A stretch of 64,000 bases of DNA from Cryobacterium frigoriphilum (lineage in GTDB: Bacteria > Actinomycetota > Actinomycetes > Actinomycetales > Microbacteriaceae): the NCBI RefSeq assembly GCF_004403305.1, contig NZ_SOHE01000083.1, positions 62,001 through 126,000 on the forward strand. Direction: 5' to 3'. Positions 2,873 to 54,100 of the stretch are shown here, one piece after another. The position numbers were made by a program, and so were the translations under genes. The first letter of the stretch is position 1; each line of letters opens with the position of its first letter. The notes beneath the pieces were generated by a model. That model worked only from the letters and a program-made list of their open reading frames with translations. It did no database searches and had not been told where the DNA came from.

Positions 2873-4239
2873 TGCGCGGCCCGCGCGTCCGCGCCGCTGC
2901 CGTCCGCCTCGATCGGTTGGGCGCTGCTTGATTGGGCACTGCTTGATTGGGCACTGCTTGATTCGGCACCGATCAGTTCCGCTTCGGCGGCTTCCGCGGC
3001 TGACGCCTGCGCCTGGAACATGCCCGTGTTCAAACCGACGGGTGCCTTGTCCGACTCGAGAACCGCAGCGGTCTGCGAGCGGGTGATGGCGTCCATCACG
3101 GTGCGTACGTCGATGACGCCCTTGAACATGTCACGGCGGCCGGTGACCAGTGCGGCCCCGGCGCTCGAGACCAGCATCGTGTCCAGTGCGTCGTTCAGGG
3201 TGGCGCGGATGCCGACAACCGGCAGCTTCGGGTCCGGAACGGCGCTGATCAGATCGAGGCGCCCGAGTTTGCGCCGCGACAGCCACTGGATCGGACGGTG
3301 ACGGTCGTCGACGATCACCGCGTGTCCGTGGCCGGCTTCGGCGACGCGGGCCAGAACATCCGCTGCCCGTTCGCCGGGATTACCGATGACGGCGTCGGCG
3401 AGACCGACCTCTTCGACCCGCGTCAGGGTGAGCTGCTTGAGGCCGGCGCCGGAGCCGATGAAGTTTTCGACGAACTCGTTGGCCGGGTCGCCGAGGATAC
3501 GCTCGGGGGTGTCGTACTGTTCGAGCTGGGCGCCCTCGTTGAAGATGGCGATCCAGTCGCCGAGCTTGACGGCCTCGTCGAAGTCGTGGGTGACGCAGAC
3601 GATGGTCTTCTGCAGCTCATCCTGGATGTTGAGCAGTTCGTCCTGCAGGCGCAGGCGGGTGATCGGGTCGACGGCGCCGAAGGGCTCGTCCATGAGCAGC
3701 ACGGGCGGGTCGGCCGCGAGAGCACGCGCAACGCCGACTCGCTGCTGCTGGCCGCCCGAGAGCTCCTTGGGGTAGCGATCACGGTAGAGGGCCGGGTCGA
3801 GGGAGACGAGCTCGAGCAGTTCGTCGACGCGGGCCGCGATGCGGGCCTTGTCCCAGCCGAGCATTTTCGGCACGATGCCGATGTTCGTGGCGACGGTCAT
3901 GTGCGGAAACAGGCCGCCGGCCTGGATCACGTAGCCGATGCCGCGCCGCAGGGTGTCGCCGTTCATCTCGGTGACGTCGTCGCCATCGACGACGATGCGG
4001 CCCTCGGTCGGCTCGATGAGTCGGTTGATCATCTTGAGGGTCGTGGTCTTGCCGCAGCCCGAGGGGCCGACGAACATGACGATCTTGCCGGCCGGGATCT
4101 CCATGGTGAGACCGTCGACGGCGGGGTGGACCTGGCCGGGAAAGCGCTTGGTGACATGGTCGAGCAGGATGCTCGCACCGGTGATTCCGGTGGATGCGGC
4201 GCTGGGCGCGGGGCTGGTGGATGCGTTGCGTTCAGACAC
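2869..4239 (-). CDS. Osmoprotectant ABC transporter ATP-binding protein with CBS domains (ProV/OpuCA type)
   Basis: Energising subunit of the importer, 456 residues. Walker A GPSGCGKT is at 58-65, signature LSGGQQQR at 160-167 and Walker B LLMDEP at 181-186. Residues of about 270-390 form a CBS pair of the kind that senses ionic strength or cyclic-di-AMP in OpuA/OpuC relatives. The C-terminal tail beyond the CBS pair is low-complexity and contains three tandem SSSAQ units, from a 15-bp DNA repeat at 2917-2961. The gene starts with GTG and overlaps the upstream permease by 8 bases and the downstream permease by 4. This tight overlap supports one operon. Confidence 0.92.
   Translation of the reverse strand: MSERNASTSPAPSAASTGITGASILLDHVTKRFPGQVHPAVDGLTMEIPAGKIVMFVGPSGCGKTTTLKMINRLIEPTEGRIVVDGDDVTEMNGDTLRRGIGYVIQAGGLFPHMTVATNIGIVPKMLGWDKARIAARVDELLELVSLDPALYRDRYPKELSGGQQQRVGVARALAADPPVLLMDEPFGAVDPITRLRLQDELLNIQDELQKTIVCVTHDFDEAVKLGDWIAIFNEGAQLEQYDTPERILGDPANEFVENFIGSGAGLKQLTLTRVEEVGLADAVIGNPGERAADVLARVAEAGHGHAVIVDDRHRPIQWLSRRKLGRLDLISAVPDPKLPVVGIRATLNDALDTMLVSSAGAALVTGRRDMFKGVIDVRTVMDAITRSQTAAVLESDKAPVGLNTGMFQAQASAAEAAEAELIGAESSSAQSSSAQSSSAQPIEADGSGADARAAQ
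2917..2970. repeat. 15-bp tandem repeat, about 3.6 copies, near the 3' end of the ATPase gene
   Basis: Units TTGGGCGCTGCTTGA, TTGGGCACTGCTTGA (twice) and a partial TTCGGCACC lie head to tail. The period is a multiple of three, so it expands the protein tail in frame as SSSAQ units about 15 residues before the stop. Confidence 0.9.
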
Positions 4240-4873
4240 GGATACCTCGGGGAATGGTCAGGCGGCCGAGGCCGACGAGAAGAAGATCAAGAATGAGGGC
4301 GAGGACGATGACGCCGATGACGCCCGTCAGTACGGACTCGAGCGAGTTGGCGCCGCCGCTGCGGGACAGCCCGGAGAAGATGAAGCCGCCCAGGCCCGGG
4401 CCGAGGGAGTACGCGGCGACCGCGGCGATTCCCATCACCATCTGAGCGGATACGCGGACACCCGTCAGAATGATCGGCCAGGCCATCGGCAGCTCCACCT
4501 GCAGCAGGGTGCGGAACCGGCTCATGCCGATGCCACGCGCCGACTCGACGATCGACGGCGCGATACCGGACAGCCCGACGACGGCGTTGCGCAGAATCGG
4601 CAGTGCCGCGAAGAAGGCCACCACGATGACGGCCGGTGTGACGCCGAAACCGAGCGGTGCGATGAGCAGACCAATCAGGGCGAAGGCCGGGATGGTCAGG
4701 CCGATGGCCGACACCGAGTTCACGACCGAGGTTAGGCCCTTACTGCGGTAGACGAGGGACGCGATGATCACGGCGATCACTGTCGCCAAGATCAGGCATT
4801 GCACCACGAGGCTGAAATGCTGCCAGCCACTGAACAGGATCTGCTCATACCGATCCCCTAGAAAATCCCACAC
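4232..4873 (-). CDS. Osmoprotectant ABC transporter permease (ProW/OpuCB type)
   Basis: Second permease of the importer, 213 residues from the chosen start. It has about five hydrophobic helices and an EAA loop (VESARGIGMSRFRTLLQVEL). The open frame extends upstream to a GTG at 4903, but the GTG at 4871-4873 (protein start VWDFLGDRY) is preferred. AGAGG lies 7 bases before it, and family members begin at this helix. First gene of the operon, reading 4873 down to 1019. The roughly 245 bases upstream hold no other gene; no clear promoter hexamers were recognised there. Confidence 0.9.
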   Translation of the reverse strand: MWDFLGDRYEQILFSGWQHFSLVVQCLILATVIAVIIASLVYRSKGLTSVVNSVSAIGLTIPAFALIGLLIAPLGFGVTPAVIVVAFFAALPILRNAVVGLSGIAPSIVESARGIGMSRFRTLLQVELPMAWPIILTGVRVSAQMVMGIAAVAAYSLGPGLGGFIFSGLSRSGGANSLESVLTGVIGVIVLALILDLLLVGLGRLTIPRGIRV

Positions 4874-5119
4874 ATTAAAACCTCTTCGCCGTAGTTCACA
4901 CACCGATTCACCGCCACCGGCAGCGGCGCAACTGGAGGCGCCGGTGCCGAACTGGATGGGGACGCGGGCTGAGAGCCGTAGGCGAGGGTGAGGGACTAGT
5001 CTCGCACGGCTACCCCCGTATGGGCGTAGCGAGACGTTACGGTTCCATCACGCGTGGCATCTCAGTGACGGGGCGCGGTATGACGAGGGCGTGACGGGGG
5101 CATGAAGGGGCGTGACTGG

Positions 5120-6646
5120 CTAGCTGCTGGGCGTGGTGGCGCGGTGTTTTTGTGGTGCGCGCCAGCTGTCGGTGGGGTCGAGCCAGTGTGGGGCTTTGAC
5201 TTGGGGTCGGCCGTTGATCATGCGGATGCGCCAGCCGCCGATGTTGTCCAGGCTTTGGTGATGCCACCAGCAGACGGCGCAGCCATTGGAGATGACAGTG
5301 TCTCCACCTTCGCTGTAGGGCACGACATGGTTGAGTTCGCAGTAGTACGCGGGCACGGTGCAGCCGAGAATGACGCAGCCTCCATCGCGGGCGGTGATGG
5401 CGCGGCGCTGCAGGTGGTCGAAGAGTCGTTTGCGGCGGTTCTGCACGCTGCCGACCTGCACGATGCGCCCGTTTGTGTCAAAGACGACGGGTTCCACGCT
5501 GCTGACCTTCATCAGGTCGGTGACGGTTTTCAACGAGAGAGGGGCGTCGAGGCCGTCGATCCAGCCGACGCCGCGGCCGGCTTCGAGGTCGGCGGCGTTG
5601 ACGTGCACCATCACGGTCGGCGCCGCACCGCCGATACTCGGAGCGCCGGGGTCGCGGGCTCCAGCCACAAACAGCGCCCGCACGATGTCGGCTCGCTTCT
5701 CACCGGCGGGGCGGGTGTCGACGCAGACGATCTGTCGGGCCTCCTCGTCGCTGCCCTCGCCCTCAGCACCCTCAGCACCATCAGCACCCTCAGCACCATC
5801 GGTGCTGTCGGTGCTCTCGGTGCTGTCGGTGCTGTCGGTGGGGGTGAAGGTGGGACTGCTGGTGGCGAAGTGCGCGGCCCAGAACTTCTCCATGATGCCG
5901 CGGTCCAGCGGAGTCATACCACCGATCAACGGGTAGAGACCATCGCGCAACAGACCGAACCCGATACTGCTCTTGGCCTCCCGGGCACGGTCGGTCGGAG
6001 CGATACCGTTGGGGTCGAGCCGGGCCTGCCAGGCCGCCACCAACACGCGGAGGTTGTCCGGCGGCAACGCCAGCCCCGGGCACGGGTCACCGTCAGAATC
6101 GAGCATCTGCGCACCGGTCGCGACAGTGACCAACGCCTGCTCGGCGGCCTCCAACTTGCTCTGCTCGGCCCGGCGAGAGACCACGTCCAGGCCTTTCACG
6201 ATCACCTCGGCCGCATCCACCCCGATCGCACCCGCAGCCAACGCCGCCCCCACCACCGGATACAGCGCCGGCAACGACGCCCCGACCCCCGCGCGCACCC
6301 GAGTGAACGCACCCAACGCCAGACGCCGCTTGGCCTCCCGCACCGACACCCGCGTGACCGCCGTGATCACGTCGACCGTGTTGCGACAGCCGAGCTTTTT
6401 GATCAGACTGCCCGACCCGAAGTCAATGGCCGCCCGCCCCGCCACATCATGCGCGGAGATCACCCGGGCGGCATCCACCAGCCGGCCCAGGCCCTCCAAC
6501 CCACCCAACACCCCGACCGCGGCCATGTCCGAGGGTCGTGAGAGGGTGAGCCCAGCAAGGACTTCGGCGAGACGCTCCTGAATCTCAGCGAGCGCCTCAA
6601 CCGCTTCGTGGTCGGAATCTGTGTCCGACGGGAGTGTCAATGACAT
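5120..6646 (-). CDS. DUF222 domain / HNH endonuclease-like protein (13E12 repeat family type)
   Basis: A 508-residue member of the large actinobacterial DUF222-HNH family. The N-terminal two thirds are the helical DUF222 region (AEVLAGLTLSRP, EAKRRLALG). The C-terminus carries an HNH fold with the order CVILGC, ELNHVVPYSEGG, NGCAVCWWHHQSLDN. The Cys pairs and the HH are intact, so nuclease chemistry is possible. The biological role of this family is not established. Between the two parts lies a low-complexity linker of TDS/TES and GAE units encoded by short repeats around 5750-5850, which looks prone to length change. The gene stands alone between the importer operon and ctaB, and starts at ATG 6646. 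Confidence 0.85.
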   Translation of the reverse strand: MSLTLPSDTDSDHEAVEALAEIQERLAEVLAGLTLSRPSDMAAVGVLGGLEGLGRLVDAARVISAHDVAGRAAIDFGSGSLIKKLGCRNTVDVITAVTRVSVREAKRRLALGAFTRVRAGVGASLPALYPVVGAALAAGAIGVDAAEVIVKGLDVVSRRAEQSKLEAAEQALVTVATGAQMLDSDGDPCPGLALPPDNLRVLVAAWQARLDPNGIAPTDRAREAKSSIGFGLLRDGLYPLIGGMTPLDRGIMEKFWAAHFATSSPTFTPTDSTDSTESTDSTDGAEGADGAEGAEGEGSDEEARQIVCVDTRPAGEKRADIVRALFVAGARDPGAPSIGGAAPTVMVHVNAADLEAGRGVGWIDGLDAPLSLKTVTDLMKVSSVEPVVFDTNGRIVQVGSVQNRRKRLFDHLQRRAITARDGGCVILGCTVPAYYCELNHVVPYSEGGDTVISNGCAVCWWHHQSLDNIGGWRIRMINGRPQVKAPHWLDPTDSWRAPQKHRATTPSS

Positions 6647-6862
6647 ATTCTCAGTATCGCGGGTCTAGAATTCAACTTCAAGACTATATATGAGTGATTG
6701 TCAGAATAATCAGAGATAATTCTCCCCTCGACACGCGCACGAACATCCCGGGTTGCCAGCGGGACCCGGGCCCGCCGTCGGCACGCTGTCGGCCCGATAA
6801 CGGCCCATCGAAGACCCCCAGAGTGCCCCAGAGTGCCCTGGGAACAGAACGTCAGGACCGGT

Positions 6863-6914
6863 GTGAGACGGGTACGTGAGAAGGGTGCGTGAGAAGGGTG
6901 CGTTAAAAGGGAAG
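6863..6914. repeat. 13-bp tandem repeat, four copies, covering the ctaB stop codon
   Basis: Four head-to-tail units read GTGAGACGGGTAC, GTGAGAAGGGTGC (twice) and GTTAAAAGGGAAG. The ctaB stop (TAA on the minus strand, 6903-6905) lies in the last unit, so the array extends from the gene end into the downstream spacer. The rest of the 6647-6902 spacer holds an AT-rich patch near 6690-6720 that may be the promoter of the HNH gene; nothing else was recognised. Confidence 0.88.
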
Positions 6915-7823
6915 GAGGGGGTCCACGCCGACGGCCACGAAGAGCAGCGTGAGGTACGCGATCGAGCCGTGGAAGACCCGCATCGGTGAGACGTGCTCGT
7001 GGCGGATGGCGAGGTTGTAGAGGCGGTGGGTCTCGTAGATGAACCAGCCACCGGTCACGAGGGCGATGCCGGTATAGAGCAGGCCCATGTCCGCGACGGG
7101 AATCAGCAGCAGGGAGCAGGCGACGGTGGCCCAGGCGTACAGGATGACCTGCAGGCCGACCTGCGCGCGACCGCGCACCACGGAGAGCATCGGCACGCCG
7201 GCGGCGCGGTAGTCCTCGCGGTACTTCATCGACAGCGGCCAGTAGTGCGGCGGCGTCCACAGGAAGATGATCAGAAAGAGGATGAACGGCGGCCACGACA
7301 GGTCACCGGTGACGGCGGCCCAGCCGATGAGCACGGGCATGCAGCCGGCGATACCGCCCCAGACGATGTTCTGCGCGGTGCGGCGCTTGAGGACGATCGT
7401 GTAGAAGACGACGTAGAGCAGGATGGCTGCGAACGAGAGAGCGGCAGCGAGCCAGTTGGTGAAGATCCACAGCCAGGCGATGGATGCCGCGCCCAATACC
7501 CACGCAAACACGAGCGCCTGCCGGTCGGTCAGCTCGCCCGTGACGAGGGGGCGCCGCTTGGTGCGGTTCATGACCCGGTCGATGTCTCGGTCGATGTAGC
7601 AGTTGAATGCACCGGCGGAACCGGCGCTGAGCGATCCACCGATCAGGGTCGCAACCATCAGCCAGAGGCTCGGAAGCCCACGTTCCGCCAAAATCATGGT
7701 CGGAGCGGTCACGACCAGCAGCAGCTCCACGACCCGTGGCTTGGTCAGTGCGACATACGCCATGACCGTGCGACGGAAACTACGGGTGCCGCTCACAGCG
7801 GTCTTCTCTAAAGCGACGTCCAT
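6903..7823 (-). CDS. ctaB: Protoheme IX farnesyltransferase (heme O synthase)
   Basis: Adds the farnesyl tail to protoheme, giving heme O, which ctaA converts to heme A. The 306-residue integral membrane prenyltransferase carries the UbiA-family Asp-rich motif [20 protein letters not shown] and a second polar loop near [16 protein letters not shown]. The open frame reaches GTG 7853, but ATG 7821-7823 is chosen because GAGGAG lies directly upstream at proper spacing. It is divergent from tkt, the usual arrangement in actinobacteria. Its last codons and stop fall inside a 13-bp tandem repeat. Confidence 0.95.
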
Positions 7824-7955
7824 TGCTCCTCTAACCGGTGCAGTCTGAAACACCTCGCAAGTCTTTTAATTCTAGGCCATCCCGGTGCAGGCCCCGTTCA
7901 TGTCACGTTAGGCCCCATGACGTAACAAAGAGGGGCAGGGTCCGGCGGCCGTCCG

Positions 7956-7961
7956 TATACT
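7956..7961 (+). promoter_or_regulatory. Candidate -10 box for the tkt operon
   Basis: TATACT is a near-consensus actinobacterial -10 hexamer about 160 bases upstream of tkt in the divergent ctaB/tkt spacer. No convincing -35 was seen at 16-18 bases, which is common for housekeeping promoters in this group. The leader from here to 8119 also contains TTGTCGC/GCGACAA complementary segments (7983-7989 and 8038-8044). Confidence 0.4.
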
Positions 7962-8119
7962 TAATGTGCTGGCCAATCGCGGTTGTCGCTCGTGGGCAAC
8001 CCCAGGGTCCCCATCCCGACATCGCGAGTCAACCGGCGCGACAACGCATTCTTCTGTGCGGTCGCTCAGATACTTGGACAGGTTCCCTGTCCACTTCGCC
8101 TTGAGAAGGGTCAATACAC

Positions 8120-10213
8120 GTGGCAGCAATGCAGTGGGATTCCATCGACAATCTAGCGGTCAACACCGCCCGAGTTCTCGCGGCCGATGCCGTGGAGAAG
8201 GTTGGAAATGGGCATCCCGGCACAGCCATGAGCCTCGCTCCCGCCGCGTACCTGCTCTTCCAGAAGGTCATGCGCCGCGACCCGGCCGACAACGAGTGGA
8301 TCGGTCGCGACCGTTTCATCCTGTCGGTCGGCCACAGCTCGCTCACTCAGTACGTTCAGCTCTACATGGGCGGCTACGGCCTCGAACTCGAGGACCTGAA
8401 GGCTCTGCGCACCTGGGGTTCCAAGACCCCGGGGCACCCGGAGTACGGCCACACCGACGGTGTCGAGATCACCACCGGTCCCCTCGGCCAGGGCCTGTCC
8501 TCGGCCGTGGGCTTCGCGTACGCTTCGCGTTTCGAGCGCGGCCTGTTCGACCCGGATGCCGCCACCGGCGCCAGCCCGTTCGATCACTTCGTGTACGTCA
8601 TCGCCGGCGACGGCGACCTGCAGGAGGGCATCACGAGCGAGGCCTCCTCGCTCGCCGGCCACCAGCAGCTCGGCAACCTGATTGCGATCTACGACAGCAA
8701 CCAGATCTCCATCGAAGACGACACCAACATCGCCTTCACCGAAGACGTCGCCGCCCGCTACGCCGCCTACAACTGGCACGTGCAGACCGTCGACTGGAAG
8801 AAGACCGGCGACTACGTCGAAGACGTCGCCGAACTGAACGCCGCCATCACGGCCGCGCAGGGCGTCACCGACCAGCCCTCGCTGATCATCCTCAAGACGA
8901 TCATCGGGTGGCCGGCGCCGAAGAAGCAGAACACCGGCAAGATCCACGGATCCGCGCTCGGTGCCGAAGAACTCGCCGGCGTCAAGACCGTGCTCGGCTT
9001 CGACCCGGAGAAGAGCTTCGACGTGGCCCCCGAGGTCATCGAGCACACCCGTCTGGCGCTCACCCGCGGCGCCGCCGCCCACGCCGAGTGGAACGTGGGC
9101 TTCGACGCCTGGGCCCTCGCCAACCCCGAGCGCAAGGTTCTGCTCGACCGCGTACTCGCCGGCGACCTGCCCGACGGCGTCGACGAGGCCCTGCCCGTCT
9201 TCCCCGCCGGTACCGCCGTCTCCACCCGCGCCGCGTCCGGCAAGGTGCTCACCGCCCTCGGTGAGGTCATCCCCGAACTCTGGGGCGGTTCGGCCGACTT
9301 GGCCGAGTCGAACAACACCACCATCGGCGGTGCGGCCTCGTTCATCCCGAGCGAGCACTCCACCGGCGCCTGGACCGGCAACGAGTACGGACGTGTGCTG
9401 CACTTCGGCATCCGCGAACACGCCATGGCGGCGATCCTCAACGGAATCGTGCTGCACGGCAACACCCGCCCCTTCGGCGGCACGTTCCTCATCTTCAGTG
9501 ACTACATGCGCCCGGCGGTTCGTCTCGCCGCGCTCATGAAGGCGCCGTCGATCTTCGTCTGGACCCACGACTCCGTCGCCCTCGGCGAAGACGGCCCCAC
9601 TCACCAGCCGATCGAACAGCTCGCGACCCTGCGCGCCATTCCCGGACTCGACGTGGTGCGCCCCGGCGACGCCACCGAGGTCGGCGTCGCCTGGCGCACC
9701 ATGCTCGAGCGTCGCAACGGTCCGGCCGGCATCGCCCTGACCCGTCAGAACATCCCGGTGTTCGCTCGTGGCGAGGGTGCAGCCAGCGGCGACACCTTCG
9801 CATCCGCTGACCTGGCCAAGCACGGCGCGTACGTTCTCGCCGAGGCCTTCACCGGCACCCCCGACGTGATTCTCATCGGCACCGGCAGCGAGGTGCAGCT
9901 TGCCGTCGACGCCCGCGAAGCGCTCAAGGCCGACGGAATCCACGCCCGCGTGGTCTCGGCTCCCTGCCTCGAATGGTTTGACGAGCAGACCGCGGAGTAC
10001 CGCGAATCTGTTCTGCCGGCCGCCATCACGGCCCGCGTCTCGGTCGAAGCCGGCATCGCCCTCACCTGGCGCGGCATCGTGGGCGACCGCGGCCGCAGCG
10101 TCTCGATCGAGCACTTCGGTGCCTCGGCCGACTACCAGACCCTGTTCCGCGAATTCGGCATCACGACGGAAGCCGTCGTCGCTGCCGCCAAAGCATCCAT
10201 CGCTGCGCACTAG
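8120..10213 (+). CDS. tkt: Transketolase
   Basis: Thiamine-diphosphate enzyme of the pentose phosphate pathway, 697 residues, full length. The thiamine-binding motif GDGDLQEG is at 163-170. Conserved histidines are in [12 protein letters not shown] (H32), VGHSSLTQY (H72) and TPGHPEYGH (H106), and the catalytic Glu region is FGIREHAM. It starts at GTG 8120 with GAGAAGGG about 9 bases upstream. First gene of a co-directional operon tkt-tal-pgi-zwf-opcA-pgl. Confidence 0.97.
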
Positions 10214-10241
10214 CGCCAACATAATTCAGGAGATCAAAAAA

Positions 10242-11366
10242 ATGACTGAACAGACCACTCCCCTCGCCCAGCTCTCCGCCGCCGGCGTCAGCATCTGGCT
10301 CGACGACCTGTCGCGCGAGCGCATCGCCTCGAACGGGCTGCAGAAGCTCATCGAAAGCCACAACGTGGTCGGCGTGACCACCAACCCGACGATCTTCGCC
10401 GGCGCCCTCACCAAGGGTGAGGCCTACGCCGAGCAGGTGGCCACCCTCGCCGCCGCCGGCACGCCCGTCGCCAAGGCCGTCTTCGAGATCACGACGGATG
10501 ACGTCACCGCCGCGAGCGATATCTTCCGCCCCGTCTACGACCGCACCCACGGCCAGGATGGCCGTGTCTCCATCGAGGTCGAGCCCGGCCTCGCCCACGA
10601 CGCCGCCGGAACCGTCGTACAGGCCCAGGAACTGTGGGCCAAGGTCAACCGCCCGAACGCGATGATCAAGATCCCCGCGACCGTTGAAGGCCTCGACGCG
10701 ATCACCGAGACCATCGCGCTCGGCATCAGCGTCAACGTCACCCTGATCTTCAGCCTCGAGCGTCACCGTCAGGTCATCAACGCCTACCTGTCCGGTCTCG
10801 AGAAGGCCAAGGCCGCCGGCATCGATCTCTCCACGATCCACTCCGTCGCCTCGTTCTTCGTTTCCCGCGTCGACACCGAGATCAACGCCCGCCTCGAGGC
10901 CATCGGCACCCCCGACGCCCTCGCCCTGAAGAGCAAGGCCGGCGTCGCCAACGCCCAGCTGGCCTACGAGGTCTTCGAGCAGGCATTCTCCAGTGAGCGT
11001 GCCCTCGGCCTGCTCGCCGCCGGCGGCACCAAGCAGCGCCCGCTCTGGGCCTCGACCGGCGTCAAGGACCCGAGCCTGCCCGACACCCTCTACGTGACCG
11101 AACTGGTCGCGCCCGAGGTCGTCAACACCATGCCGGAGAAGACGATGCAGGCCACCTTCGAGCACGGCGTGATTCCCGCCGACTCGGTCACTGGCTCCTA
11201 CGCCGCGGCCAACGCCGTGCTCGACGCCCTCGCTGCGCAGGGCGTCTCCTACGACGACGTCACCCGCGTTCTCGAAGAGGAAGGCGTCGCCAAGTTCGTC
11301 ATCTCCTGGAACGAACTGCTCGAAACCGTCGAGACGGCACTCAACGCCGCCAAGGTTCTGCGATGA
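10242..11366 (+). CDS. tal: Transaldolase
   Basis: Transfers a dihydroxyacetone unit between sugar phosphates. The 374-residue protein of the actinobacterial Tal class has the Schiff-base lysine in [10 protein letters not shown] (K143). The substrate-binding segment is [22 protein letters not shown]... at residues 31-52. The open frame extends upstream into tkt, but ATG 10242 with CAGGAGA 8 bases before it is the clear start. The stop overlaps the pgi start (ATGA). Confidence 0.97.
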
Positions 11367-12967
11367 GTTTTCGTATTTCGGTGAGCGGAGCGGCGGCCGA
11401 CGCCGTTCGCTCCGCCGTACCGACGCTGGTCGACGACCTGGTCGCCTCCGGCATCACGGCGCTTGACCCGGCGCTGTGGGGCCCGGACGCGCAGTCAGAG
11501 GCCGCCGTGCGCCTGGGCTGGACGGAATCCGTCGCGATCTCCCGCCCGCTCGTCGCCGAGATCGTCGCCCTGCGCGACGACCTGCACGCACGCGGCGTGA
11601 CCCACATCAACCTCGCCGGCATGGGCGGCTCCTCGCTCGCCCCCGAGGTCATCACCCGCACCGCGGGTGTCGAGCTGACCGTGCTCGACGCCACCGACCC
11701 CGGCCAGGTGCTCGCCGCCCTCGGCACCAACCTCGCCACCTCGGCGCTCGTCGTGTCGAGCAAGTCCGGTTCGACGGTCGAAACCGACAGCCAGCGTCGC
11801 GTCTTCGAACGCGCCTACCTGGCCGCCGGCATCGACCCGGCCGAGCGCATCATCGTGGTGACGGACCCCGGTTCGCCGCTCGAGGCATCCGCTACCGCCG
11901 CCGGCTACCGCGTCTTCACGGCCGACCCGAACGTGGGCGGGCGCTATTCGGCCCTCACCGCTTTCGGACTCGTGCCGTCGGGCCTGGCCGGCGTCGACAT
12001 CGGCGCGCTGCTCGACGAGGCAGAGGCCGTTTCCCTGTCGCTCGCCGTGGACTCCCCCGAGAACCCCGGACTGGTGCTCGGCGCGGCGATCGCCGCGACC
12101 GTTCCGCGCCGCGACAAGCTCGCCATTCTCGCCGACGGAACCCACATCGTGGGCTTCGCCGACTGGGTCGAGCAGCTCATCGCGGAGTCGACCGGCAAGC
12201 TCGGCCGCGGCATCCTGCCGGTCGTCATCGAGGCGACCGCCCCGGAACTGACCGAGGCCCTGCCCGACGTGCAGCTCGTGCGCGTGGTAGCGGATGCCGG
12301 CACCGAAATTCTGCTCGGCGACGACACCGATGAGATCCGCGTCAGTGGAACCCTTGGCGCGCAGTTCCTGGTCTGGGAATACGCGACCGTCGTCGCCGGC
12401 CGGTTGCTCGGCATCAACCCCTTCGACCAGCCCGACGTGGAATCGGCCAAGATCGCGACCCGCGGCCTGCTCGACTCCCGCCCGGCGCCCGAACCGGCCG
12501 CGTTCATCTCCGACGGCATCGAGGTGCGCGGCACTGCCCACGTCATCGGCGCCGCGAGCGACCTCGCCTCGGCGATCGACGCCCTGCTCGAGGAACTCGG
12601 CCCCGACGGCTACGTGGCCATTCAGGCCTACGTGAACCGCCTGGCACTGCCCGAACTGGCCGGCCTGCGCGACGGTGTCGCGACGCTCGCCAAGCGCCCC
12701 GTCACCTTCGGTTGGGGACCCCGGTTTCTGCACTCGACCGGTCAGTTCCACAAGGGCGGCCCGGCCACCGGCGTGTTCCTGCAGATCCTCGCCACTCCGG
12801 CCGAGGACCTCGATATTCCGGAACGCCCGTTCACCTTCGGCGAGCTCGTGCAGGCGCAGGCGAGCGGTGACGCGAGCGTTCTGGCGGCTGCCGGTCGCCC
12901 GGTGCTCACGCTGACGCTGACCGATCCGGCCGCGAACCTGGCGACCCTCTTCGCGGCACTCGCGTAG
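11363..12967 (+). CDS. pgi: Glucose-6-phosphate isomerase
   Basis: Interconverts glucose-6-phosphate and fructose-6-phosphate, returning carbon from the pentose pathway to glycolysis. At 534 residues it has the short, divergent form found inside actinobacterial pentose phosphate operons. Sugar isomerase (SIS) motifs [12 protein letters not shown] and [13 protein letters not shown] are present. Start ATG overlaps the tal stop by 4 bases, indicating translational coupling. Confidence 0.93.
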
Positions 12968-12999
12968 GCTCGCCCTGCATCACTAGATCCGGCACCACC

Positions 13000-13023
13000 G
13001 GACGGGGCCTTCGGGCCCCGTCC
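13000..13023 (+). terminator. Intercistronic hairpin between pgi and zwf
   Basis: A perfect 10-bp stem GGACGGGGCC / GGCCCCGTCC closes on a stable TTCG tetraloop. There is no T-run, so it is more likely an attenuating or mRNA-stabilising hairpin than a full terminator. Confidence 0.55.
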
Positions 13024-13057
13024 CGATCGATACCCCATACCTCCCCGAAGGAGCTGC

Positions 13058-14599
13058 ATGTCACCGGTGGAAATCACCCCGGAGTTCAACCCGCTGCGTT
13101 CGCCCTCCGACTACCGCCTGAACAGAATCGCGGGGCCCAGCAGCCTCGTCATCTTCGGCGTCACCGGCGACCTCGCTCGGAAGAAACTCATGCCCGCGGT
13201 CTACGACCTCGCCAACCGCGGCCTGCTCCCCCCGGGCTTCGCCCTGGTCGGCTTCGCCCGCCGCGACTGGGACAACGAAGACTTCATGCAGGTCGTGCAC
13301 GATGCGGTCAAGGAACACGCCCGCACCGACTTTCATGAGGATGTCTGGGCACAGCTGGCCGAGGGCATCCGCTTCGTCTCGGGAACTTTCGACGACGCGG
13401 CCGCGTTCGAACGCCTCAAGGACACGATCGAGGAACTCGACCGTGAACGCGGCACCATGGGAAACCATGCCTTCTACCTGTCGATCCCGCCGAAGGCCTT
13501 CCCGGAGGTCACCGAACAGCTGCGCCGTTCGGGCCTCGCGGAGCAAAAAGACGGCCAGTGGCGCCGCGTCGTCATCGAAAAGCCCTTCGGCAGCGACCTG
13601 AAGACCGCCCGTGAACTCAACGCGGTGGTTGAATCGGTCTTTCCGCCGGACTCCGTCTTTCGAATCGACCACTACCTGGGCAAGGAGACGGTGCAGAACA
13701 TTCTCGCGCTGCGCTTCGCGAACCAGATGTTCGAACCGCTCTGGAACGCCAACCACGTCGAGCACGTGCAGATCACCATGGCCGAGGACATCGGAGTGGG
13801 CGGTCGCGCCGGATACTACGACGGCATCGGCGCCGCCCGCGACGTCATTCAGAACCACCTGCTGCAGTTGCTCGCGCTGACCGCGATGGAAGAACCGATC
13901 TCCTTCGACGCCGCCGATCTGCGCGCCGAGAAGGAGAAAGTTCTCGCCTCGGTGCGACTGCCCGATGACCTGGGTCTCGGCACCGCACGCGGCCAGTACA
14001 CCGGCGGCTGGCAGGGCGGTGAGAAGGTCGACGGATTCCTCGAGGAAGACGGCATGAACCCGGACTCCGTCACCGAAACCTACGCGGCACTGCGCCTGAC
14101 GATCGACACCCGCCGCTGGGCCGGAGTTCCCTTCTACTTGCGGGCCGGCAAACGACTCGGCCGCCGGGTCACGGAGATCGCCGTGGTCTTCAAGCGGGCC
14201 CCGCAATTTCTCTTCGCGCCCAGCCAGACGGCCGAGCTCGGCCACAATGCACTCGTCATCCGCGTGCAGCCCGACGAGGGCGTCACCATCCGCTTTGGTT
14301 CCAAGGTGCCCGGTGTGAACATGCAGGTGCGCGATGTGACCATGGACTTCGGGTACGGCCACGCCTTCACCGAAGCCAGCCCGGAGGCCTACGAGCGTCT
14401 GATTCTCGACGTACTGCTCGGCGACCCGCCGCTGTTCCCCCGCCATGAGGAGGTTGAACTGTCGTGGAAAATTCTCGACCCGATCGAGGAGTACTGGGCC
14501 ACTCAGGGTCAGCCCGAACAGTACCGCCCGGGAACCTGGGGCCCCACCTCGGCCGACGAACTTCTGGCCCGCGACGGCCGAACCTGGAGACGACCATGA
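13058..14599 (+). CDS. zwf: Glucose-6-phosphate 1-dehydrogenase
   Basis: First oxidative step of the pentose phosphate pathway, producing NADPH. The 513-residue protein has the nucleotide-binding GVTGDLARKKL (34-44), the active-site DHYLGKE at 204-210 and the substrate segment RAGKRLGRR. Start ATG 13058 is preceded by GAAGGAG. The stop overlaps opcA by 4 bases, consistent with the known dependence of actinobacterial Zwf on OpcA. Confidence 0.97.
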   Translation: MSPVEITPEFNPLRSPSDYRLNRIAGPSSLVIFGVTGDLARKKLMPAVYDLANRGLLPPGFALVGFARRDWDNEDFMQVVHDAVKEHARTDFHEDVWAQLAEGIRFVSGTFDDAAAFERLKDTIEELDRERGTMGNHAFYLSIPPKAFPEVTEQLRRSGLAEQKDGQWRRVVIEKPFGSDLKTARELNAVVESVFPPDSVFRIDHYLGKETVQNILALRFANQMFEPLWNANHVEHVQITMAEDIGVGGRAGYYDGIGAARDVIQNHLLQLLALTAMEEPISFDAADLRAEKEKVLASVRLPDDLGLGTARGQYTGGWQGGEKVDGFLEEDGMNPDSVTETYAALRLTIDTRRWAGVPFYLRAGKRLGRRVTEIAVVFKRAPQFLFAPSQTAELGHNALVIRVQPDEGVTIRFGSKVPGVNMQVRDVTMDFGYGHAFTEASPEAYERLILDVLLGDPPLFPRHEEVELSWKILDPIEEYWATQGQPEQYRPGTWGPTSADELLARDGRTWRRP

Positions 14600-15561
14600 T
14601 CGTTGATCTGCCCAACACCACCACCAGCAAGATCTCCAAGGCGCTGGTGCGCATTCGTGAGGAGGGCGGCGCGGTCGCGCTCGGACGCGTTCTCACGCTC
14701 ATCATCTCGTCGACCCTCGGCCACGAAGAAGAAGCCATTGCCGCCGCGAACGATGCCTCTCGTGAGCACCCGATGCGGGTCATCGTGGTCTCCACGCAGG
14801 TTCCGAATGCGGGTGACCCCGAACCCGCCGCCCGGGTTGACGCCGAGATTCGGGTCGGCGGCGACGCCGGCGCGAGTGAGGTCATCGTGCTGCGCGTGTA
14901 CGGCGAGGCCGCGAACGACCCGGAGAGCCTGGTCACCGGACTGTTGCTCTCCGACGCCCCCGTCGTGACGTGGTGGCCGGGTGAAGCGCCGGAGATTCCC
15001 TCCGAGACTCCCCTCGGCCGGCTCGCCAACCGCCGAATCACGGATGCCTCGGCGCAGCTGAGCCCTCAGGACGCGCTGTTCCACCTGTGCCACAGTTACC
15101 GTCCCGGTGACACGGACTTCGCGTGGACCCGCCTGACGCTGTGGCGTGGCCAACTCGCCGCCGTGCTCGATCAGCCGCCCTATGAGGCCGTCACGGCCGT
15201 ACAGGTCACGGGGGCAGCGGCATCGCCGTCAACCACGATGCTCGCCGCGTGGCTGCAGATGCAGTTGGGGGTCACGGTCGAATACGAACTCACCTCGGGC
15301 CCGCTCGCCAACGGCGTGCACGGTGTGCACCTCACCCGCGCCTCCGGTGTCATTTCACTGGAGCGCGAGATTCCCGACGTGGCCACCCTCAGCCAGCCGG
15401 GCCAGCCCCTGCAGGATCTGACGCTCAAGCGTCGCAGCCTGCGCGACTGCCTGGCCGACGAACTGCGTCGGCTGGACCCCGACGAACTGTATGGTGAAGT
15501 CATTATGCGTGGTCTTCCGGGTTTGCACGCGAAGGCCGCCGCCGAGGCTGGGGAGAAATAG
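14596..15561 (+). CDS. opcA: Glucose-6-phosphate dehydrogenase assembly protein OpcA
   Basis: Activator or assembly factor for glucose-6-phosphate dehydrogenase, 321 residues. It has the family pattern MIVDLPNTTTSKISKALVRI at the start, WWPGEAP near residue 137 and a C-terminal domain. The frame is open upstream inside zwf, but ATG 14596 overlapping the zwf stop (ATGA) is the natural start. The stop shares one base with the pgl start. Confidence 0.93.
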   Translation: MIVDLPNTTTSKISKALVRIREEGGAVALGRVLTLIISSTLGHEEEAIAAANDASREHPMRVIVVSTQVPNAGDPEPAARVDAEIRVGGDAGASEVIVLRVYGEAANDPESLVTGLLLSDAPVVTWWPGEAPEIPSETPLGRLANRRITDASAQLSPQDALFHLCHSYRPGDTDFAWTRLTLWRGQLAAVLDQPPYEAVTAVQVTGAAASPSTTMLAAWLQMQLGVTVEYELTSGPLANGVHGVHLTRASGVISLEREIPDVATLSQPGQPLQDLTLKRRSLRDCLADELRRLDPDELYGEVIMRGLPGLHAKAAAEAGEK

Positions 15562-16331
15562 TGAGCAACGAACGGCGTGTACTGGTTCACCGCGACAAAC
15601 AGGCGCTGGCCACGGCGGTTGCGGCACGGTTCATCACGAAGATGGTCGATATTCTCGACGAACAGGGCACGGCACACGTCGTTCTGACCGGTGGTTCCGT
15701 GGGCATCAACGTGCTCTCGGCCATCAACGAGTCGTCGGCCAGGGACACCATCGACTGGACCAGAGTGAACTTCTGGTGGGGCGATGAGCGTTGGCTGGCC
15801 CGGCACGATGCAGAACGCAACGAACTGCAGGCCAGGGTGGCGCTGCTCGATCACATCGATGTTCCCGAAGAGAACGTGCACCCGATGGGCGCCGCCGGCG
15901 AGGGTGTCGAGCTGGATGACGCCGCCGCGGGCTATGCGGCGGAACTCGGCGCGAACGCTCCGTTCGGGGCACTGATGCCGAGCTTCGACATTACCTTTCT
16001 GGGAGTCGGCCCTGACGGACACATCGCATCGCTGTTCCCGCACCGGTCCGCGATCAGGGAGCGCGAGGCGAGCGTGCTCTCCGTGCGCCGTTCCCCCAAG
16101 CCGCCGGCCGAGCGCATCACGCTGACCCGTCCGGTGCTCAACTCCTCCGAGCGGGTCTGGCTCGTGCTGGCCGGCTCGGACAAGGCATCCGCTTTGGGGC
16201 TGGCCCTGGCCGGTGCCAGCCGCGACGAGGTTCCGGTCGCCGGCATCAAGGGCCGACGTCGCACGGTCTTCTTCATCGACAAGGCCGCGGCCGCCGAGGT
16301 TCCCGAGAACCTCATCGCGCCGATCTACTGA
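15561..16331 (+). CDS. pgl: 6-phosphogluconolactonase
   Basis: Hydrolyses 6-phosphogluconolactone, the product of Zwf. The 256-residue SIS-like lactonase carries the motifs LTGGSVGINVL, WWGDERW, and FLGVGPDGHIASLFP with the catalytic-region His. It starts at GTG 15561. Last gene of the operon; gnd is not in this window. The stop codon begins a 12-bp tandem repeat and a strong terminator follows 40 bases later. Confidence 0.95.
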   Translation: MSNERRVLVHRDKQALATAVAARFITKMVDILDEQGTAHVVLTGGSVGINVLSAINESSARDTIDWTRVNFWWGDERWLARHDAERNELQARVALLDHIDVPEENVHPMGAAGEGVELDDAAAGYAAELGANAPFGALMPSFDITFLGVGPDGHIASLFPHRSAIREREASVLSVRRSPKPPAERITLTRPVLNSSERVWLVLAGSDKASALGLALAGASRDEVPVAGIKGRRRTVFFIDKAAAAEVPENLIAPIY

Positions 16332-16360
16332 CGGGCAAGCTGACGGCCAAGCTGACGCAG
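16328..16360. repeat. 12-bp tandem repeat, about 2.7 copies, beginning at the pgl stop codon
   Basis: Units CTGACGGGCAAG, CTGACGGCCAAG and CTGACGCAG lie head to tail. The first unit contains the pgl TGA stop (16329-16331), so each copy repeats a TGA. Confidence 0.85.
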
Positions 16361-16370
16361 GTTTAACACA

Positions 16371-16405
16371 GAAAGGCCCCGACCTGTCAGGTCGGGGCCT
16401 TTCTT
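16371..16405. terminator. Bidirectional terminator between pgl and rbpA
   Basis: A 15-bp perfect stem (GAAAGGCCCCGACCT, 16371-16385, with 16389-16403) closes on a 3-base loop. T-runs lie on the plus side and A-runs on the left flank, so it can end the plus-strand pentose phosphate operon and the minus-strand rbpA transcript. Confidence 0.9.
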
Positions 16406-16425
16406 GATGCACTGTCGGTGTGCTG

Positions 16426-16791
16426 CTAGTTCGGCGCGATCTTGCCGCGGCGCACGCGCAGCTGCTGCAGCGCCTCTTCGAGGAGGGACTCCGCCTCTTG
16501 CTCGGTGCGGCGCTCTTTCACGTAGGCGAGGTGGGTCTTGTAGGGCTCCAGCTTGACCACGGACGGCGGGTTGGCCTTGTCGCGGCCGGCCGGAAGTCCT
16601 GAAGACGGGCAATCGATCGTGACGGGGATTTCTTCGTCGGGCAGGGTCGCCGCGAAGTAGCGCACGGTCTCGTTGCCGAGGGCGTCCCAGTAGGAAACCT
16701 TGACGCGCTCCGCGTGGTATCCGCGGTCCTGCTCACCCATCGGGCCGGCTCCTACACGCGAGCCCCGAATTGCGCTGCCACCAGATGCCAT
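16426..16791 (-). CDS. rbpA: RNA polymerase-binding protein RbpA
   Basis: Actinobacteria-specific transcription factor that binds RNA polymerase and group I/II sigma factors and stabilises open complexes. The 121-residue protein contains the basic linker with GSRVGAGPMGEQDRG, the core domain with the zinc-less pattern typical of many members, and the C-terminal sigma-interaction helix (LLEEALQQLRVRRG). It lies next to secG, its common neighbour. Confidence 0.93.
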   Translation of the reverse strand: MASGGSAIRGSRVGAGPMGEQDRGYHAERVKVSYWDALGNETVRYFAATLPDEEIPVTIDCPSSGLPAGRDKANPPSVVKLEPYKTHLAYVKERRTEQEAESLLEEALQQLRVRRGKIAPN

Positions 16792-16854
16792 GATCTTCCT
16801 CCGCTACATTTTTTTACAGATGCTGTGTTCTGATTCTTGTTGGGCGACCTGAGG

Positions 16855-17106
16855 CTAAACGCCTGTATCGAACTTGGTGATCAAACCCAACACCACGATG
16901 CACGTGATCCAGGCCAGCCCCAGAACCACGGTGATGCGATTGAGGTTACGCTCTGCGAGGCCCGAGGCACCGAGATTCGATGTCATGCCGCCCCCGAACA
17001 TGTCGGAGAGGCCACCGCCCCTCCCCTTGTGCAACAGAATGAGCATGGTGAGCAGGAGGCTCGTAATTCCGAGCAACACCTGCAACACAACCTGGAGAAT
17101 CTCCAC
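16855..17106 (-). CDS. secG: Preprotein translocase subunit SecG
   Basis: Small membrane subunit of the SecYEG channel, 83 residues. Two hydrophobic helices (about 4-24 and 55-76) flank the conserved cytoplasmic loop LHKGRGGGLSDMFGG. It lies downstream of tpiA with a 158-base spacer that contains a 7-bp GGGTGCC/GGCACCC hairpin at 17190-17207, so partial transcript separation is possible. Confidence 0.93.
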   Translation of the reverse strand: MEILQVVLQVLLGITSLLLTMLILLHKGRGGGLSDMFGGGMTSNLGASGLAERNLNRITVVLGLAWITCIVVLGLITKFDTGV

Positions 17107-52118: not shown

Positions 52119-52201
52119 GCCGGTGTGGCGGAATGGCAGACGCGGAGCACTCAAAATGCTTTGTTCGCAAGGACGTGTGGGTTCGAGTCCCACCACCGGT
52201 A
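52119..52201 (+). tRNA. tRNA-Leu (anticodon CAA)
   Basis: An 83-base cloverleaf. Acceptor arm GCCGGTG pairs with CACCGGT (first pair G-U) and the discriminator is A. The anticodon stem GAGCA/TGCTT holds loop CTCAAAA with anticodon CAA, which reads UUG. A long class II variable arm lies around TGTTCGCAAGGACG, and the T arm GTGGG-TTCGAGT-CCCAC is intact. CCA is not encoded. A TATTCT hexamer at 52097-52102 is a possible -10. Confidence 0.95.
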
Positions 52202-52216
52202 CAGATTATTGAAAGG

Positions 52217-52242: not shown

Positions 52243-52631
52243 GCTGTTTCCCCCCGAAGTGCACGGCGGCCATGCCACACATTCGTGCCACACGAGCGCT
52301 GACCTCGGGGCCGGCCACGACCGGTGAGGCACGGACTTCGTGCCTTCCTGCGCGCCCGGAAGGCACGAAGTCCGTGACTCGGCTTCGCCCCGCCGTCAAC
52401 ACGCCGATAGGGTGACGCTGTGCGAGGGTTTTCAGGCGAGGCGGGTGGTGCACGCGTTGCGCCGCCCTCTCCGGGGCTACCCCGGGGCACGCAGACCGAC
52501 CAGGAACGAACACCGCAGGCACGCCACTGCGCTCCGCGCAGCTCGGTGCCCGCACCGATCGACGAGTCGCCCGGATTCCCTCACACACCCACTTCCAGCC
52601 CGGGCAGCCACCCCGGCAAACGGGCACCACG
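52243..52631 (+). ncRNA. Candidate retron-type noncoding RNA region (msr-msd-like), hairpin-rich leader of the reverse transcriptase
   Basis: Gene-free stretch between the tRNA terminator and the reverse transcriptase. In order it holds a 6-bp hairpin at 52282-52296 (TTCGTG-CCA-CACGAG) and a CCGG/CCGG hairpin at 52311-52324. Next comes a perfect 19-bp hairpin with arms 52330-52348 and 52358-52376 and loop TGCGCGCCC, extended by GAG/CTC beyond one mismatch. Further small hairpins lie at 52471-52485, 52527-52541 and 52545-52556. Short flanking complements ACGGCGG (52263-52269) and CCGCCGT (52390-52396) could be a1/a2 arms. Known retrons place two or more small msr hairpins before a long msd hairpin upstream of the enzyme, which is the order seen here. 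The a1/a2 match is weak and no branching guanosine can be assigned. Confidence 0.4.
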
Positions 52632-54023
52632 GTGAGGGCGGGTTCGGCCGCGCCGCCACCGACTCCGGCCGCACTCGTGCTCGGGCGCAAACCGCATCCG
52701 TCGACGGATGCCCTGGCGGCCACGCTTGCCGCCGCCCTGCTCGGCGCCAAGACGTGGTCGAAGACCGACATGATCGAGGTGGGCGCCCGCGCGCTCGGTG
52801 CCCGCCGCCGCTGGCTGGGCCCCCTCGCGAGCGAGATTCTGAGCTCCTACCCGCGGGCGCCGACGGATGCGCCGCGCGAGTTGGCCGCACACATCACCGG
52901 CTGCACCGCCTTCAGCAACGCCGTCGAGGAAGCCACCAGTCGGGGCGTCCCGATCACCATCGCCAGCTATCCCCTGACTCCGCCCCAGGCCGGCGCAGTC
53001 ACATCCGCGCTCCCGCGACTCGACACCCTCGGCGACCTTGCGGCACTGCTCGGGCTGACCCCGGGAGAACTCGACTGGTTCGCCGACACCGGCCACTGGA
53101 ATCGCCGAGCCCGCCCCGGGGTGCTGCACCACTACCGCTACGAGTGGCGAGCACGGCCGGGGCGCACGCCGCGCCTGCTCGAGGTGCCCGGTACCCGCCT
53201 GCGCGCCCTCCAGCGCACCCTGCTGAACGACCTGCTCGGCCTGATCCCGGCGCACCCGGCCGCGCACGGCTTCGTTCCGGGCCGCAGCGCCGTGACCGGT
53301 GCCGCCCGGCACACCGGCGCCGCCGTCGTCATCAGCCTCGACCTCACGTCGTTCTTCGCCAGCGTGAGCGCGCAGAACATCTACGGCACCCTGCGGCGGG
53401 TCGGCTATCCCGAGGCGGTCGCGTACTCGCTCACCGGACTGTGCACCCACGCGGTCCCGCCGCGGGTGATCGCCGCGATGCCGCCGGGCGGCGACCCGGG
53501 TGAGCGGGCAGCACTGCGGCGAGCTCTGGCGAGTGCACATCTGCCGCAGGGCGCCCCGACTTCCCCCGTGCTCGGCAACCTCGCCATCCGCCGCCTCGAC
53601 GCGCGCCTCGACGGCTGGGCCGAAGCCGCAGAGGCGACGTACACCCGGTACGCCGACGACCTTGCCTTCAGCGGCGGCGACGCGCTGCACCGGCGGGCGG
53701 ATGCCTTCGTACGCGGCGTCACACGCCTCGTCACGGCCGAAGGTCACACCGTGAACCCGCACAAGACGCGGGTGAGGCCGGCCAGCGTGCGGCAAAGCGT
53801 CACCGGCATCGTCGTCAACGCGCGCCCGAACCTGGTGCGGGTCGAGGCCGACCGGCTCAAGGCGATCGTGCACAACTGCGTCGTACATGGCCCGGCCGGC
53901 CAGAACCGCGGGGCCCACCCCGACTTTCGGGCGCACCTGCTCGGCCGCATCTCGTGGGTCGAACAGCTCAACCCTCAGCGCGGCGCCCGCCTACGCGCCA
54001 CTTTCGCCCGCATCCGCTGGTAA
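52632..54023 (+). CDS. Retron-type reverse transcriptase
   Basis: A 463-residue RNA-directed DNA polymerase. Residues 1 to about 130 match no domain I know. From about 132 the order is retron-like: a helical segment DLAALLGLTPGELDWF, then RLLEVPGTRLRALQRTLLND (181-200) and HGFVPGRSAVTGAARH (212-227, a GAxxH variant of the retron NAxxH). Motif A SLDLTSFFAS follows with D237, then LPQGAPTSPVLGNL (304-317), YADD at 340-343, GHTVNPHKT (371-379) and VTG at 390-392. All catalytic aspartates are intact. No maturase or integrase domain is present. It starts at GTG 52632, overlapping the stop of an unassigned 71-codon frame; no clear Shine-Dalgarno is seen. Its base composition matches its neighbours, suggesting long residence. 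Confidence 0.9.
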   Translation: MRAGSAAPPPTPAALVLGRKPHPSTDALAATLAAALLGAKTWSKTDMIEVGARALGARRRWLGPLASEILSSYPRAPTDAPRELAAHITGCTAFSNAVEEATSRGVPITIASYPLTPPQAGAVTSALPRLDTLGDLAALLGLTPGELDWFADTGHWNRRARPGVLHHYRYEWRARPGRTPRLLEVPGTRLRALQRTLLNDLLGLIPAHPAAHGFVPGRSAVTGAARHTGAAVVISLDLTSFFASVSAQNIYGTLRRVGYPEAVAYSLTGLCTHAVPPRVIAAMPPGGDPGERAALRRALASAHLPQGAPTSPVLGNLAIRRLDARLDGWAEAAEATYTRYADDLAFSGGDALHRRADAFVRGVTRLVTAEGHTVNPHKTRVRPASVRQSVTGIVVNARPNLVRVEADRLKAIVHNCVVHGPAGQNRGAHPDFRAHLLGRISWVEQLNPQRGARLRATFARIRW

Positions 54024-54039
54024 ACACGCGCCGCACACA

Positions 54040-54100
54040 CGCGAAAGCGGGTGAATCGTCGGTCTGACAGTGTCTGACCGACGATTCACCCGCCTTCGCG
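54040..54100. terminator. 25-bp hairpin between the reverse transcriptase and pyk
   Basis: Arms 54040-54064 and 54076-54100 pair at 24 of 25 positions around an 11-base loop. It lies 16 bases after the reverse transcriptase stop and 10 bases from the convergent pyk stop. The simplest role is bidirectional termination, although no T-run is present. Confidence 0.7.

Follow-up and report, generated by a model that had tools for sequence, protein, structure and literature searches.

The window analyzed here, i.e. the whole stretch of 64,000 nt of the Cryobacterium frigoriphilum contig NZ_SOHE01000083.1, carries on its forward strand an uninterrupted reading frame (52632-54023, GTG start, stop included) encoding a retron-type reverse transcriptase (RT) of 463 amino acids, as indicated by the ORF list, the translation, Pfam and PADLOC profiles and the predicted fold. 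RVT_1 (1.6e-18) is the only Pfam domain matched in this frame, in a search in which a fused effector domain was also looked for. The retron hallmarks named in a preliminary description of the locus are all read in the translation, namely the catalytic YADD motif (residues 340-343; 53649-53660, forward strand), the VTG of region Y and, in region X, GAARH, a GAxxH variant of NAxxH; QGAPTSP and LDLTSFF are also found. The catalytic aspartates are intact, and in an alignment of 47 RT sequences Y340, D342 and D343 are invariant. The GAxxH variant, in which the histidine is kept, is within the normal range of retrons: a survey of retron-like RTs gives 100% conservation for this histidine and 62% for the asparagine (PMC4244168), and Mx65 and Ec48 are described as likewise devoid of the region X asparagine (PMC6868368). 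The aligned members of the family are 39-85% identical to the window RT over the whole protein, and a comparison with its homolog in locus L013 gave a dN of 0.089 and a dS of 0.425 (dN/dS about 0.2). The structure of the RT was predicted with a mean pLDDT of 91.5.

The protein begins with a predicted helical domain (residues 1-124, six helices; 52632-53003, forward strand), delimited from the predicted structure and the alignment, which when predicted alone reached a pLDDT of 87.8. The domain is poorly conserved: among the 39 family members in which an alignment was possible, most are 19-50% identical to that of the window, with 82% in L013. Relative to L013, this domain and the RT part have equal dN (0.091 and 0.088, respectively), and the domain has the lower dS (0.235 vs 0.512). 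Compared alone with solved structures, the domain gave a best Z of 3.9 (72 residues, rmsd 4.3), and a Foldseek search returned no match under an E of 1, although such weak matches are no proof of a new fold.

Upstream, at 429 nt from the RT, lies a tRNA-Leu (CAA) gene detected by the tRNA search (52119-52202, forward strand), which is outside the retron; the other flanks are an ORF for an ANTAR-type regulator and a pyk gene convergent to the RT, both named from a reading of the ORFs. This setting, and the lack of an effector gene adjoining the RT, whose neighbors in the window are the tRNA-Leu and pyk, had already been described and were found as stated; there is no defense island around the RT. 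Amid the convergent RT and pyk genes, the repeat search placed an inverted repeat with 30-nt arms separated by 1 nt (54040-54100), perhaps a two-way terminator; it was not listed by a terminator scan requiring a run of T. The composition of the RT gene had been said to match that of the host, which is the case for its GC3 (0.877, compared with 0.84-0.90 in five neighboring genes) but not for its total GC (0.735 vs 0.668 for the window). Similarly, the GGATGC motifs mentioned as host-like do occur inside the gene, where five copies of GGATGC/GCATCC correspond to 3.6 per kb, a higher density than the 1.6 per kb of the window. A palindrome with 23-nt arms (52326-52380) recurs at six further sites of this genome (13 matches when both strands are counted, including two at the window itself) and looks like a small REP-type element; homology of the retron region with its nearest relative starts at the edge of this palindrome.

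A conserved RNA upstream of the RT gene

Just upstream of the RT, a conserved structured RNA resembling msr-msd (52422-52584, forward strand), which had been overlooked in the preliminary description, was delineated by alignment, covariation and a covariance model. The 500 nt preceding the window RT match those of 42 of the 61 other loci at E<=1e-3. In L004, whose RT is at another genomic site, the match covers window positions 52421-52596 at 83%, while the match shrinks to a core near 52466-52487 in the remotest of these loci. An alignment of 35 upstream regions, that of the window included, displayed an 18-bp outer stem, two hairpins and a longer hairpin; 39 distinct RNA sequences were listed, from which the divergent L038, L044, L049 and L050 were omitted, and L013 is also absent from the alignment, all five being later recovered by the covariance model.

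On the forward strand of the window, the outer stem is formed by the a1 arm (52422-52439) and the a2 arm (52567-52584), with 18 pairs, 16 of which have changed on both sides. Between the arms, the consensus fold and covariation define a first msr-like hairpin (52443-52467), a nearly invariant second one of the form CCGGGG-loop-CCCCGG (52469-52487) and an msd-like hairpin (52515-52553), the proposed template of the hairpin in the RT-DNA. As read from these sequences, the layout is a1-msr-msd-a2, as in retrons. Of a total of 46 pairs, 30 were changed on both sides with pairing kept, against 20.0 in shuffled alignments and 13-16 in slid ones; paired cells amounted to 94.6% (79.6% shuffled, 40-48% slid) and the covariation score was 0.430 (0.149 shuffled, 0.06-0.10 slid), bearing in mind that the consensus structure was built from the very sequences counted and is consequently favored in the slid control. 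The RNA of the window itself folds moderately better than its shuffles (z -2.30, with 2 of 200 shuffles as good). No meaningful match to this RNA was found in Rfam, the tRNA being the only match of the window to attain a gathering score.

In known retrons, the branch guanosine is located at the end of a1 (PMC6868368). Here, a G at 52440 (forward strand) immediately 3' of a1, in a conserved GAG context, is proposed as the likely branch point, by analogy with those systems and from the alignment. Its context in the window is GAGG, while the commonest one known is TAGC; among the priming motifs listed in PMC6868368 the nearest is GAGC, and GAGG does not figure there. Ahead of the RNA, column conservation points to a -10-like box, TAnnnT (52408-52413, forward strand), as a putative promoter, at which a scan for the sigma-70 consensus found no site.

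The covariance model matched 64 of the 65 loci of the RT family, always on the strand of the RT and with a start upstream of the RT match; 63 of these matches have E<=1e-5 and the remaining one, L047, 0.001. In three loci (L033, L043 and L059) the RNA runs 27-61 nt into the start of the RT match, and in the single locus missed, L034, the RT is at a contig edge. Since 34 of the 64 RNA-positive loci had been used in building the model, we considered the 30 others, of which L005, L015 and L017 repeat rows of the model and L002 and L013 are apparently one contig (each 52,069 bases long), leaving 26. These include a Paraburkholderia genome and draft genomes of Acidobacteria and Planctomycetes, and overall the RNA ranges from Actinomycetota to Burkholderiales, plus those draft genomes; several of the drafts are metagenome bins, whose naming can err. 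Within the genus, the RNA was found in five of 57 genomes, exactly the same five that carry the RT, and the model found none at the four genus loci with other RTs (L009-L012). Two of these, L009 and L010, are type III-A retron RTs distinct from the window RT. When 292 sampled genomes of the phylum were scanned with filters that lose weak matches, the model recovered the window's genome only, while the RT_other profile of PADLOC matched three of 296, namely the window and two loci (L103 and L104) in which the RNA also stands just before the RT. A description of this RNA was not encountered in the literature searched, a comparison that did not extend to the main classification paper or to the RNA models of PADLOC; PADLOC has retron RNA models of its own (PMC9252829), and the RNA may already be present in existing lists of retrons or RNA models.

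Classification of the RT

The window RT was scored by PADLOC at 598 bits with RT_other (PDLC02949) and 559 with RT_outgroup (PDLC03740), and the same two profiles were the best by far in four distant members of the family, with the scores in the same order. Both are catalogued as RT profiles and span the greater part of the N-terminal extension as well; the papers that could be searched gave no described RNA, effector or function for this group. The next-best profile, that of type XIII RTs, which are of similar length, gave 282 bits, less than half of 598, and the cut-offs of group_II_RT_mat (46 bits vs 300) and Drt2 (36 bits vs 390) were not reached. Likewise, the solved folds closest to the predicted RT are those of retron RTs, Ec86 (Z 25.7, 297 residues, rmsd 9.6) and Eco2 (Z 25.3, 236 residues, rmsd 2.3), followed by group II (Z 18.2, 229 residues, rmsd 3.1), DGR (Z 17.7, 227 residues, rmsd 3.4) and DRT2 (Z 15.1, 284 residues, rmsd 10.9) enzymes.

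In an unrooted tree, 30 members of the family were separated from 13 other retron-like RTs with a support of 100. These references derive from 20 typed candidates, six of which had no family at 1e-75 and one more of which was omitted; three of the 13 are only XIII-like, and they fall across the fully supported split from the window family. When a single distant group II RT was used as outgroup (branch length 4.3) the root fell inside the family, and thus the tree leaves open its deeper position relative to group II. A group II or DGR affiliation had been put forward as the outcome that would overturn the retron assignment; both profiles and fold speak against the former, and the latter was compared by fold, in which it ranks below retron RTs. 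The RT belongs to the retron group that PADLOC names RT_other/RT_outgroup.

Distribution and mobility

The preliminary description had suggested that the RT may be a resident cellular function, which is not supported, and had asked whether the tRNA-Leu-RT-pyk order is conserved across Microbacteriaceae. The RT is present in five of 57 genomes of the genus, and in three of its members it occupies sites other than that between tRNA-Leu and pyk. The tRNA-Leu site was retrieved from 30 of the 57 genomes, including those of the window and of one relative harboring the retron (G003); in 22 of the 28 remaining relatives the gap from tRNA-Leu to pyk measures 113-716 nt and lacks the RT, the other six being not measurable. 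The succession of tRNA-Leu and pyk is common in the genus; of the 65 family loci, L002 and L013 alone have pyk in the vicinity of the RT. Because of these empty sites, the sporadic presence and the homologs in unrelated places, the reading as a resident gene was rejected.

Discovery of a mobile-element context in relatives had likewise been named as a finding that would count against the first interpretation, and this was borne out in part. In G003, the nearest relative, the tRNA-Leu and the retron are separated by a 15.3-kb element (L101, reverse strand, about 1646-17008) containing phage integrase, portal and capsid genes; it is prophage- or satellite-like and is inserted in the same tRNA-Leu, but two att-like repeats of the tRNA's final 26 bases bound it, and the retron is just outside them. 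In addition, a transposase gene is the next listed gene downstream of the RT in a relative from a Dietzia plasmid. Five plasmid records with RT relatives were opened, two of them with no listed genes at that place and three with the RT amid metabolic or regulatory genes, the PLSDB gene table being incomplete; in the Tsukamurella record the RT precedes a HAD-hydrolase gene by 28 nt. The Tsukamurella 'plasmid 5' (L186, NZ_LR134447.1) carries polA and rpsA, and for this reason it may be a piece of chromosome. A phage origin was rejected: among 50,697 phage records no full-length relative of the RT was found (eight had a match, the best at 29% identity), nor was there one among the best 80 of 163 viral-contig loci (at most 36% identity).

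Neighboring genes

In 64 loci, the window included, the 62 upstream neighbors fall into 52 clusters and the 61 downstream neighbors into 42, and in 39 of the 61 the downstream gene is convergent with the RT. No neighbor family recurs across the RT family in these 62 upstream and 61 downstream genes or in Pfam and PADLOC scans, the latter covering the 107 nearest genes of 57 loci, with genes above 900 amino acids left out; a conserved operon partner was rejected on this basis. Among the first 25 of 113 listed Pfam families, the commonest were ABC_tran and AAA_21 (six of 107 each), with a TNT domain in four, and the commonest PADLOC matches, mad3, mad8 and AriA (six each), look like cross-matches of generic ATPases. 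Neighbors shared by near relatives include a TetR-type regulator, an esterase-like protein, a fatty acid desaturase, a flagellar gene, an ABC transporter, and DUF4190 and YitT genes. The contig labelled Vibrio cholerae 35D (L028) shares neighbor clusters with the Arthrobacter loci L023, L024 and L027 and is probably mislabelled or a contaminant.

The ORF picker used to call neighbors was a simple one: pyk in L013 was misread, and a group of pentapeptide-repeat genes ended up in the RT cluster, for which reason the latter are missing from the counts and the scan above. These genes, in five Amycolatopsis and Crossiella loci, four of which were run against Pfam, overlap or abut the RT stop codon, with starts within 7 nt of its end on either side (L048, 7076-7708; L049, 7002-7625; L052, 6969-7562; L053, 6968-7561; L060, 7006-7620), and are candidates for the role of retron partner within this subclade. 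A TNT-domain gene adjoins the RT region on the opposite strand in four loci (L048, 7758-10028; L049, 7644-9860; L060, 7698-10241; L067, 7667-10030) and none is adjacent in L052 and L053; since each of the six genomes searched has 3-5 TNT matches, this nearness may be due to chance. Both gene types weigh against a retron without a partner.

Discussion

Because a covarying RNA precedes 64 of 65 homologous RT loci and, in the genus, occurs in the same five genomes as the RT, we consider it very probable that the locus is a complete retron, consisting of a single RNA and a single protein. The earlier view of a retron-type enzyme is accordingly upheld by profiles, by the fold and, above all, by the covarying msr-msd-like RNA. 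Priming, msDNA and its length are deduced from known retrons. In such a scheme, the RNA starting at 52422 would fold, with a1 paired to a2, and be bound by the RT, which would use the 2'-OH of G 52440 as primer for cDNA synthesis; copying upstream from 52566 would then yield msDNA, in which a hairpin of RT-DNA, roughly 55-70 nt long, remains attached to the msr RNA. More speculatively, the partner may be the N-terminal helical domain of the RT itself or a protein encoded elsewhere.

Ec86 (Eco1), tied with Eco2 as the highest-ranked solved structure, has the a1-msr-msd-a2 layout that we propose for the window RNA; it works with a separate effector, whereas the window retron has none adjoining and displays an extra N-terminal domain. 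By their description in PMC6868368, Mx162, Mx65, Sa163 and Ne144 have an extended N-terminus, as does the window RT, and Mx65 shares with it the missing asparagine of region X. The same source predicts retron RTs in Actinobacteria, and reports host-like codon use and probable vertical inheritance for Mx162 and Sa163, unlike the patchy occurrence of the present family within a genus; the msd of Mx162, with 162 nt, also differs from the roughly 55-70 nt predicted here.

An accessory and probably defensive role is suggested by the patchy presence, the changing sites and the maintained pairing, and we lean slightly towards an accessory immune element. As no neighbor stands as toxin, one would have to be supplied by the N-terminal domain or by a protein encoded in trans, unless the role is non-immune. 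If a partner is built in, the N-terminal domain is the foremost candidate, and we tentatively hypothesize, at somewhat less than even chances, that it is a built-in effector or a docking part. It is also conceivable, if rather doubtful, that these loci represent an old single-gene retron lineage, spread in several phyla and devoid of a separate effector, in which the N-terminal domain, released or switched by the msDNA, would itself be the toxin or sensor.

The msDNA, or an RT-msDNA particle, could instead have a non-immune cellular job, such as regulation or DNA repair, which we regard as possible yet less probable than defense. The lack of a family-wide neighbor on either side, the absence of close relatives in the phage records and in the 80 best-matching of 163 viral-contig loci, and the housekeeping-like GC3 of the RT are all compatible with such a job, and a review mentions retrons with no clear effector links, for which other functions are possible (PMC8867640); nevertheless, an occurrence in five of 57 genomes at differing sites is that of an accessory element and not of a core one. 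That the retron is tripartite, with an effector acting in trans or encoded beside the RT only in some lineages, seems unlikely to us: the pentapeptide-repeat genes at the RT stop codon and the toxin-type TNT genes beyond would fit, but these candidates are confined to the Amycolatopsis/Crossiella subclade, none is near the window, and the TNT domain occurs several times in each of the genomes searched and is not adjacent in L052 and L053. More improbable still is a decaying or selfish retron that has lost its effector and is of no use to the host, since, even though an adjoining partner is missing and the distribution is sporadic, the frame and the active-site residues are intact, the dN/dS relative to L013 is about 0.2 and the stems of the RNA are kept by compensatory change among actinobacterial families. 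Finally, a group II intron, DGR or DRT-type enzyme with no retron identity is hardly credible, for although the RT fold is common to all these classes and the root is unsettled with one group II RT as outgroup, the group II and Drt2 profiles remain far below their cut-offs, retron RTs rank first among solved folds, an RNA with a1 and a2 arms stands upstream, and only the tRNA attains an Rfam gathering score within the window.

While the RT group was already known from PADLOC, and retrons with no clear effectors from the literature (PMC8867640), the present analysis adds the conserved RNA with its taxonomic range and its association with the RT, the finding that no partner is shared family-wide, and an N-terminal domain that matched none of the solved structures searched well. 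The lack of an effector in some retrons still awaits an explanation, for which this family, with an RNA of about 163 nt and a protein of about 460 amino acids, offers a compact case. The covariance model provides a means of finding and typing the family, whose hosts include soil and cold-climate actinobacteria, and the defined RNA structure indicates which bases to mutate. If the RT and the RNA alone protect the cell, the N-terminal domain would be a new kind of retron effector; if they give no protection, this family would point to retrons with jobs beyond abortive immunity.
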